Source: Betaproteobacteria bacterium
Lineage (GTDB): Bacteria > Pseudomonadota > Gammaproteobacteria > Burkholderiales > Thiobacillaceae
Assembly (NCBI GenBank): GCA_016219425.1
Contig: JACRNB010000001.1
Coordinates: 310,001 to 374,000, forward strand
Length of the DNA: 64,000 nucleotides
Direction of reading: 5' to 3'
Under the pieces are notes generated by a model, which worked only from the letters and a program-made list of their open reading frames with translations, made no database searches and had not been told where the DNA came from. The translations under genes were made by a program, and so were the position numbers. Below, in pieces: positions 7,675 to 37,056 of this stretch. Within the stretch, counting starts at the first letter, position 1, and each line of letters starts with the position of its first letter.

Positions 7675-8290
7675 TTGTGGTTGGGGATCCGGGCGTACCT
7701 GGCCCAAGACGTGATGAAAGGCCTGGAGCGCTGGACGTCGACGGCGGGCACGCAGCAAGGCGCGGTGATCAGCCCGCTGCTGGCGAATATCTACCTGCAC
7801 CCGCTGGATGAACGGATGGCGGCCAAAGGCTATCGGATGGTGCGGTACGCGGACGACTTTGTAGTCCTGTGCCGGACGACCGACGAAGCGGCCCAAGCCC
7901 TGGCGGAAGTACGCGCCTGGGTAGAAGGCAACGGCCTCACGCTGCATCCAGACAAGACCCGGCTGGGGGACTGTCGGGAAGCCGGGCAAGGGTTCGACTT
8001 CCTGGGCTACCGGTTTGAAGCGGGGAAGCGCTGGGTGCGCAAGAAGAGCCTGAAAGCCCTGAAGGACAAACTGCGGAGCAAGACTGGCCGCACGAACGGG
8101 ACGAGCCTCAGCCGCATCATTGAGGAGATCAACCCGATCCTGAAAGGCTGGTTTGGCTACTTCAAGCACGCCAGCCGGCTGGATGGCTTCATCCGTCGCC
8201 GTCTGCGCGCGCTGCTTGGAGAGCCGTGTGCGGGAGAACCGCACGCACGGTTCGGAGGGAGGAGAGGGCTGGCGTCCTTCTCTATCCCTA
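7675..8290 (+). mobile_element. Deleted group II intron (reverse transcriptase fragment plus domain V)
   Basis: Residues from IRAYLAQDVMKG to about FIRRRLRALL (7690-8215) are the central part of a group II intron reverse transcriptase/maturase: GTQQGAVISPLLANIYL, the catalytic box RYADDFVVL and FDFLGYRFEAG. The N-terminal third of the RT is missing. The maturase ends abruptly after the first X-domain helices. The next bases, about 8218-8255, fold as the intron's domain V hairpin (GAGCCGTGTGCGGG...ACGGTTCG). A possible domain VI stem and the 3' end follow by about 8290. No 5' intron domain is seen upstream. The element is a dead remnant; the open frame through domain V to 8460 is chance. Confidence 0.85.
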
Positions 8291-8422
8291 TCAAATCCGG
8301 GGTTTTTCGAGGCCACCCCGGAGTGTGTTGCAGCGCCTGCCTGCGCCGCGAAGCCTGGTCTATCGCGCTTCAGCCAAGGCGCATGCGGGTCAGCGCAACT
8401 GACCCTGCTTCCTTTTCGACCA

Positions 8423-32573: not shown

Positions 32574-34097
<1,524 letters not shown>

Positions 34098-35116: not shown

Positions 35117-36924
35117 CTAGTTGTCCGTGCCCGTGAGGGGGCGAATGTTGCTGAGGGTGGCTCCGCAGTCGCGCACCAGGGTCTGCACGAAGGGATCGTT
35201 GTGGATGGCTGTCTCCGTCTCCGCCTGGCGCTGCGCCGCCTCCCGCGCACGGGCGGCGGCGGGGGTGGCGGCGACCGTCTCGGCGGTGAGGTCGATCTCG
35301 ATCTTGACCGCCGCGCCCAGATGTTCCGTCAGGGCCGCCTTGAGCTTGTCGCCGAAACTGTTCAGCAGGGGCTTGTGGACCTCGGGCAGGCGCAGGCGCA
35401 GGGCGTGCGCGTCGCGGGCGACCAATTCGCAGTGCATGGCGAGCTGGCGCACCAGGCCGGGGAGGGATTCGGCGAGGGCGCGCCAATCCGTATCAAGCCC
35501 CTCCCCCCTAGAGGGGGAGGGGTTGGGGACCAGCCCGGAGGGCGCAGGACGCGACGTAGTCGCGGTCCCGAGCGGAGCGAGGGATGGGCCATCGGCCCAC
35601 AGAGGGGGAGGCGAGCGCAGCTCGCCGCAGGCTGCGCCTGCTCCACCCTCTCCCTGCCCTCCCCCCCCAAGGGGGAGGGTTCTGATTTGGGGTTCGTTGG
35701 CGGCTTGGGCGACGGGGCTGGGGCGGGGGCTGGGGCGCCGGGGCGGGGGGGGGGGGGGGGGGCGGGTTGCGGGCGCGCGGACGTGGCGGCGGCGGGATTC
35801 CCGCCTGCGCCGGATTGACGTGCGCCAGGCGGCAGCGGCTCGCCGGGCGCGAAGGCCAGCATGCGCAGCAGAGTCATGGAGAAACCGGCGTACTCGTCCG
35901 GCGCCCATTCCAGGTCGCGCCGGCCCAGGGTGGCGATCTGATAGAAGAGTTGCACCGTCTCCGGGTCCAGTCGTCGGCCCAGGTCGAACAGGCGCTCGCG
36001 TTCGGGGGCGTCTTCGCTCACCGCCTCGGGCACGGTCTGGGCCAGGGCGATCTGGTGCAGCAGGCCCGCCAGATCCTGCAAGGCGGCGTCGAACGAGAAA
36101 CCGCGCGCCGCCAGTTCGTCCGCCTCGCGCAGCACGCGCGCGCCGTCCTGGTCGGCCAGGGCCTCCAGCACCGGCAGCAGGTAGGCCTGGTCGATCACCC
36201 CCAGCATGGCGCGGGTGTCGTCTTCCTTGATCGCGCCGCTGCCGTAGGCGATGGCCTGGTCGGTGAGCGAGAGGGCGTCGCGCATGCTGCCGGCGGCGGC
36301 GCGGGCCAGCAGGCCGAGCGCGCCCGGCTCGAATGGCACGGCCTCCGCCTCCAGCACGTTCTTCAGATGGCCGGCGACATGGCCGGGCGGCATCTGCTTG
36401 AGATTGAACTGGAGACAGCGGGAGAGCACCGTCACCGGCACCTTCTGCGGGTCGGTGGTGGCGAGGATGAAGATGACGTGGCCGGGCGGCTCCTCCAGCG
36501 TCTTCAACATGGCGTTGAAGGCGTTCTTCGAGAGCATGTGCACTTCGTCGATGATGTAGACCTTGTAGCGCCCGGCGGTGGGGGCGTACATGGCGTTCTC
36601 CAGGATCTCGCGCATGTTGTCGACGCCAGTGTTGGAGGCGGCGTCGAGCTCGATCAGGTCCACGAAGCGTCCGCTGTCGATCTCGCGGCAGGCGGCGCAC
36701 TGGCCGCAGGGTTCGGCGGTGACGCCGGGTTCACAGTTGAGGCACTTGGCGAGGATGCGCGCCAGGGTGGTCTTGCCCACGCCGCGCGTGCCGGTGAACA
36801 GGTAAGCGTGATGCAGCCGCCCGGTGGACAGGGCGTTGGACAGCGCCCGCACCACATGTTCCTGCCCGACCAACTGGTCAAAGCGACGGGGACGCCACTT
36901 GCGGGCAAGGACTTGATGGCTCAT
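35117..36924 (-). CDS. dnaX: DNA polymerase III subunit tau/gamma, reading frame broken in the linker
   Basis: The N-terminal part (from ATG 36924) has the AAA+ clamp-loader domains: Walker A GTRGVGKTTL, zinc module CLNCEPGVTAEPCGQCAAC, Walker B VYIIDEVHML, SRC motif. This frame continues to a stop at 35362, where it ends in repeat-derived sequence (520 aa, gamma-like). The tau C-terminal domain (DTDWRALAESLPGLVRQLAMHCELV... to FVQTLVRDCGATLSNIRPL, stop 35117) is intact but in the -1 frame. The switch must occur in the shared open zone around a run of 18 G (35745-35762 on the + strand; C on the coding strand). A repeat-like insert (about 35495-35690) lies within the linker. It is either a true frameshift (slippage or programmed) or a homopolymer sequencing error. 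Confidence 0.85.
35490..35695. repeat. Repeat-rich insertion inside the dnaX linker
   Basis: A chain of palindromes: CCCTCCCCCTAGAGGGGGAGGG near 35497-35521, GCGACGTAGTCGC, GGGCCATCGGCCC, GGCGAGCGCAGCTCGCC and CCCTCCCCCCCCAAGGGGGAGGG near 35666-35690. Translated in the tau frame it gives the low-complexity segment RTLPLGGGGQGEGG...NPSPSRGEG, unlike family linkers. It resembles the intergenic element at 33988-34069. Boundaries are approximate and no clear target duplication is seen. Confidence 0.65.
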
Positions 36925-36959
36925 GGGGCGGCGGGCGTAGAGGTGTTGGGGTGGCGAGC

Positions 36960-37056
36960 CTGACCCCCGGCACTGGCATCGGCGGCTGTGGCTGCTTCCT
37001 TCCGGACCTGACCAGGTTCACTGCTTAGCCATGCGGGGAGGCCCGCCGGGGGCAAT
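36960..37056 (-). ncRNA. ffs: Small SRP RNA (4.5S RNA)
   Basis: On the minus strand the conserved domain IV core GGTCAGGTCCGGAAGGAAGC (about 37012 down to 36990) is flanked by complementary arms: GCCCCCGGC near 37053-37045 pairs with GCCGGGGGT near 36971-36963. It is the RNA of the signal recognition particle, partner of Ffh. It lies directly upstream of dnaX, as in many beta- and gammaproteobacteria. Exact ends are approximate. Confidence 0.92.

Follow-up and report, generated by a model that had tools for sequence, protein, structure and literature searches.

The dnaX locus and its two reading frames

The window analysed here, a stretch of 64,000 nucleotides from a Thiobacillaceae genome, carries a row of minus-strand genes comprising recR, ybaB and dnaX, the last encoding the gamma and tau subunits of DNA polymerase III, with a gene for the small SRP RNA immediately upstream of dnaX (Rfam RF00169, 72.9 bits; Table 1). 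The dnaX start lies at 36924, and the DnaX N-terminal model TIGR02397 (dnaX_nterm, NCBIfam) is matched at 442.7 bits against a cut-off of 250. The model of tau domain V (PF12170) is matched only in the -1 frame, at 43 bits (cut-off 28.8) on the stretch 35117-35785; this frame is open from 36700 to 35117, with domain V at its end, and no stop was found in the domain V frame. The clamp-loader ATPase part and tau domain V thus lie in different frames, as had been proposed from the letters and open reading frames of the DNA alone (hereafter the sequence-only reading), and the further proposal that a -1 shift would join the two parts agrees with the frame geometry. The same reading expected the 0 frame to give a short gamma-like protein; its predicted product is instead 520 aa long and continues for 126 codons past the homopolymer tract to a TGA at 35364-35362.

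Table 1. Features of the dnaX region, in positions of the window.
Feature	Position	Strand	Basis or description
dnaX (DNA polymerase III gamma/tau) gene region	35117-36924	-	TIGR02397 and Pfam domains
0-frame ORF	35362-36924	-	520 aa; ATPase, lid and domain III followed by 126 codons beyond the tract
tau domain V region, -1 frame	35117-35491	-	PF12170; aligned with 22 relatives
Homopolymer, 18 G on the plus strand (18 C on the coding strand)	35745-35762	-	Count in the assembly sequence
Frame-change zone by homology, ends approximate	35726-35782	-	Some 57 bases, 18 of them the run
Composite dispersed repeat in the tau linker	35492-35686	-	Two REP-like palindromic units, inverted, enclosing the inner unit
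Inner repeat unit	35526-35607	-	88% identical to the in-frame insert of the genome's own pgi
Third, decayed dispersed repeat, upstream of the tract	35784-35820	-	Two weak matches elsewhere in the genome
Small SRP RNA gene	36950-37047	-	Rfam RF00169

Both frames are open over about 1.3 kb (36700-35362). The sequence-only reading had used the zone around the run that is open in both frames to place the shift; the zone is indeed open in both, but its extent means that it does not locate the shift, and it was rejected as a locator. Homology places the change more narrowly: since frame 0 matches the protein of a relative (G015) down to 35782, while the -1 frame holds from 35725 the peptide RPSPVAQAANE in common with that relative, the shift was placed at about 35782-35726, and the G18 run itself is the likely site. 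When the ORFs of three relatives were matched to the genes of the window (about six matched), dnaX was the only one whose matches fell into different frames of its own strand. Within the otherwise variable tau linker, an AANE-type motif (window 35704-35693) is kept across the genus.

The 18-G run predicted by the sequence-only reading has exactly that count and position in the assembly, and the whole window is free of ambiguous N bases. It is the longest G/C run of the 3.1-Mb assembly, the next longest being 13. Runs of at least 9 number 17 (nine of 9, four of 10, two of 11, one of 13 and one of 18), a count obtained by manual grouping of 38 overlapping matches. Two of the others, of 10 and 11 bases (L154 and L160), have frames that are open for more than 300 codons on either side, which suggests that the shorter homopolymers of this assembly were counted well. 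In the assemblies of relatives, G/C runs of very great length occur at the ends of contigs (e.g., G011:C93:1-28), and these look like sequencing artefacts.

Comparison with relatives and with known dnaX recoding

A dnaX query matched in all 41 genomes, the window's own included, with only weak matches in G005 and G030 that were taken to be other clamp-loader genes. Loci were retrieved for 30 matches, again including our own; 27 of the resulting 29 relatives were testable, the two left out being a locus that runs into a contig end (L029) and one with no domain V match (L035). The sequence-only reading had suggested aligning the linker with close relatives, and in this comparison both dnaX parts lay in one unbroken frame in 27 of 27 (20 of 21 same-genus loci, 2 of 2 same-family and 5 of 6 same-order), with a longest linker run of 8. 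It had also pointed to relatives with the linker insert and an intact frame as informative. The linker of G015 contains a repeat of the same family, with the frame intact and no run above 8, and the idea that the linker repeat must break the frame was therefore rejected as unneeded.

A wider set of 109 dnaX loci (80 from a further search plus the 29 relatives, with L044 and L045 looking the same as L021 and L018, and four loci reaching a contig end) gave G/C runs never longer than 8 between the N domain and the stop, and A runs of up to 10. The dnaX ORF of one locus (L117) is short, at 420 aa, and contains no long run. Runs of A or T of at least 6 are absent from dnaX in the window and in all 22 relatives of the genus and family, and thus no ancestral A-run shift signal was seen in this group. 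A same-order relative (L038) has an A8 run in its dnaX linker with the frame intact, possibly a slippage site of the Thermus kind.

Recoding of dnaX in E. coli and Thermus is described at A-rich sites with nearby stops (PMC5009743; PMC1088944). Our locus resembles these systems in the gene concerned and in the two products that a shift would be expected to give. In those systems as described, however, all of tau can be read without a shift, and it is the shorter product that terminates at a stop close by (PMC5009743; PMC1088944), whereas here tau needs the shift, the other product extends 126 codons further, and there is no A-run. The slippery site A AAA AAG was not found in the dnaX region, nor was any A/T run of at least 6. 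An 86-nt stretch containing the tract folds at a z of -0.22, which is not unusual; the fold of 35480-35800, with the repeat, has a z of -3.24, and its strong stem starts some 60 nt downstream of the tract. The two frames that do not lead to tau stop 126 and 78 codons past the tract, so that neither provides a near stop for gamma. Programmed frameshifting of the E. coli type was rejected because a slippery A heptamer, an adjacent structure and a near stop were all lacking.

Interpretation of the frame break

The state of domain V bears on whether tau is still made. Between the window and 20 same-genus relatives, domain V has a pN of 0.21-0.29 and a pS of 0.39-0.68, and it looks to be under purifying selection. 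On the terminal branch of the window, the ratio of domain V to N-part length (C/N) was 3.20, compared with 3.28 for whole-tree lengths, the values coming from separate trees that differ in shape and in which single terminal ratios scatter widely. Pairwise values are less even. Identity in domain V is 0.61-0.66 between the window and its 12 closest relatives (N identity 0.87-0.91), against averages among pairs of relatives of 0.67 (N 0.87-0.90; 44 pairs) and 0.82 (N 0.90-0.93; nine pairs that are few and related to one another). The corresponding C/N ratio of pN, 2.74-3.75 for the window against its 12 closest relatives, lies mostly above the relative-pair values of 2.81 and 2.21. Domain V appears to be without clear decay on these comparisons; the pairwise values leave room for a slight relaxation, which the tree test does not show. 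A conserved domain V says little about a very recent break of the frame.

A real disabling mutation, after which the lineage would make only the 520-aa protein and lose domain V, would be consistent with the broken frame of the assembly and with a domain V divergence that is somewhat high for the closest relatives. We consider it very improbable, given a domain V that has no stop, scores above the PF12170 cut-off and shows no acceleration on the tree.

The unbroken frame in 27 of 27 relatives, the intact frame of G015 with its repeat and the absence of the E. coli-type hallmarks together lead us to favour a tract that is miscounted or of mixed length over recoding. The sequence-only reading had left two possibilities, tau and gamma produced by slippage or a count error in the assembly; the comparison favours the latter, extended to a tract of mixed length. 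It is probable, in our judgement, that the tract is hypermutable and slippage-grown, that its length was miscounted or is mixed, and that dnaX functions as a normal tau gene. In this account, slippage during replication would have lengthened a proline-rich stretch of the flexible dnaX linker into the hypermutable C18/G18 tract; the one length given by the assembly would be a counting error or would represent a single allele among several in the population, with the working copies in the tau frame and tau made without recoding.

A G tract in pilus genes of Bifidobacterium breve offers a parallel, since it also lies between two frames and its database length is not the commonest in culture: it is G11 in RefSeq, with about 37% G11 and 60% G12 in culture (PMC9187656). 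That report calls homopolymer counts of this kind challenging; the genes concerned there are pilus genes, whereas the tract here is in a replication gene (PMC9187656). Two observations count against a miscounted or mixed-length tract, namely the 10- and 11-base runs within long open frames, and the identity of the window's domain V, which is low for its closest relatives. If the count is wrong or mixed, dnaX would be another database gene seemingly broken only through a homopolymer.

If the genome truly contains 18 residues, RNA polymerase or the ribosome might slip on the C tract to yield tau along with the 520-aa product. By geometry only, the locus fits the class of split dnaX genes, in which two ORFs would be joined by a -1 shift at a homopolymer and tau needs recoding; 17 such genes are described, 12 with poly-A (PMC3711429). 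The runs named in that report (PMC3711429) are 7-10 A, whereas here the coding strand has 18 C, not seen in relatives. Blochmannia dnaX, with a frameshift in a poly-A tract that is thought to be corrected by slippage (PMC3017870), would be a precedent, and the apparent purifying selection on domain V is also compatible with such recoding. In E. coli and Buchnera, however, a survey of indels arising in transcription reports that the insertions within homopolymers were all in A/T runs, and its authors describe runs of G and C as not being prone to slippage, their E. coli runs reaching only 9 (PMC5574713); a Neisseria paper likewise mentions A/T repeats as allegedly having the higher propensity (PMC5084427). 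With a tract that has no unusual adjoining structure (z of -0.22) and no near stop, and that is not seen in relatives, we consider recoding unlikely. Still less probable is the proposal that this GC-rich bacterium obtains tau from the out-of-frame gene through C/G slippage, with any tract length giving some tau and the hypermutable tract being buffered in this way. A real count of 18 would provide a test of whether C/G tracts support recoding in a replication gene.

A run far longer than the others of the genome might also serve functional phase variation, the length of the tract turning tau on or off or altering the proportions of the products between cells. Tau is essential in E. coli, however, so the tau-off state should be lethal. 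The tract is furthermore not seen in relatives, and we hold functional phase variation to be highly unlikely, even with a putatively phase-variable dnaX in Neisseria (PMC1097732; PMC4085013) as another case of a C tract in a betaproteobacterial dnaX. A gonococcal phase-variation table lists that gene, as putative, with a tract of C7 as against 18 here (PMC1097732), and dnaX homopolymers differ among meningococcal strains (PMC4085013).

Dispersed repeats in the linker and in other genes

The palindromic repeat that the sequence-only reading described in the linker is real; it proved to be a dispersed repeat, and nothing was found that makes it a recoding signal. As that reading had stated, neither the 0 nor the -1 frame is stopped within it; the third frame does stop inside it (TAG 35510-35508). 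A 221-base query of the linker repeat gave 47 matches in its own genome, itself included, often several per place, and it matched 12 of 23 genomes of the genus, its own included, with one match inside the dnaX linker of G015. The tail of another dnaX linker, that of G006, had 40 matches in G006, itself included. Because of the repeats in the G015 and G006 linkers, we conclude that dnaX linkers of this genus took up dispersed repeats more than once. In the favoured account, this dispersed repeat DNA next to the tract would have entered the linker by insertion and would be tolerated at that place.

At an E-value of 0.001, the inner unit was found at two places in its own genome, the dnaX linker and the ORF of pgi (glucose-6-phosphate isomerase; PF00342, 723.9 bits; G000:C11:30008-31747, loci L186 and L215), which is open throughout. 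The net insert in pgi is about 35 residues including the inner unit, and it is absent in 16 relatives with both pgi halves (15 nearly whole and G021 in pieces; G009 gave one half only). In these 16, query residues of about 227-266 are unmatched and the halves are separated by 6-21 bases; the alignment with G003 gives 26 residues. The inner unit in G020 and G009 looks non-coding; the gene just downstream of it in G020 is one that we take to be aroA.

Twenty repeat loci were retrieved, and 10 ORFs from seven of them were scanned for protein families. An ORF of the AcrB transporter family (L205, G000:C9:189000-190994) has a REP-type unit in an unbroken frame of 1077 aa, with Pfam ACR_tran matched on both sides of the repeat (profile positions 169-495 before and 506-799 after). 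The repeat region comprises 51 residues, against 51 bases in G009, the closest complete relative, for a net insert of about 34 residues. Among the 10 scanned ORFs there were also ApbE, ABC transporter and DUF58 cases in which the repeat comes before the domain and may be non-coding, and five ORFs without a family match.

Three unrelated genes of a single genome, namely dnaX (in its linker), pgi and the AcrB-family transporter gene, contain dispersed palindromic repeats in frame, and these in-frame repeats are the part of our results that is most worth following. In arrangement they resemble the Rickettsia palindromic elements, which are likewise palindromic, dispersed and present in frame within protein genes that are unrelated to one another; dozens of insertions are reported there (PMC10969869), as against three coding cases among the copies examined here. 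The three cases could be traced across the genus. As small dispersed palindromic units, here often in inverted pairs, the repeats are also like REP elements (PMC3733652). Two Y1 transposase matches (Y1_Tnp) were found in the genome, neither of them close to the listed repeat copies.

Two other observations were made in the window. The region at about 33990-34080, which separates recR from purB, resembles this REP-type repeat when its translations are inspected by eye, and outside the dnaX locus, at 8219-8291, there is a group II intron match (RF00029, 56.7 bits).
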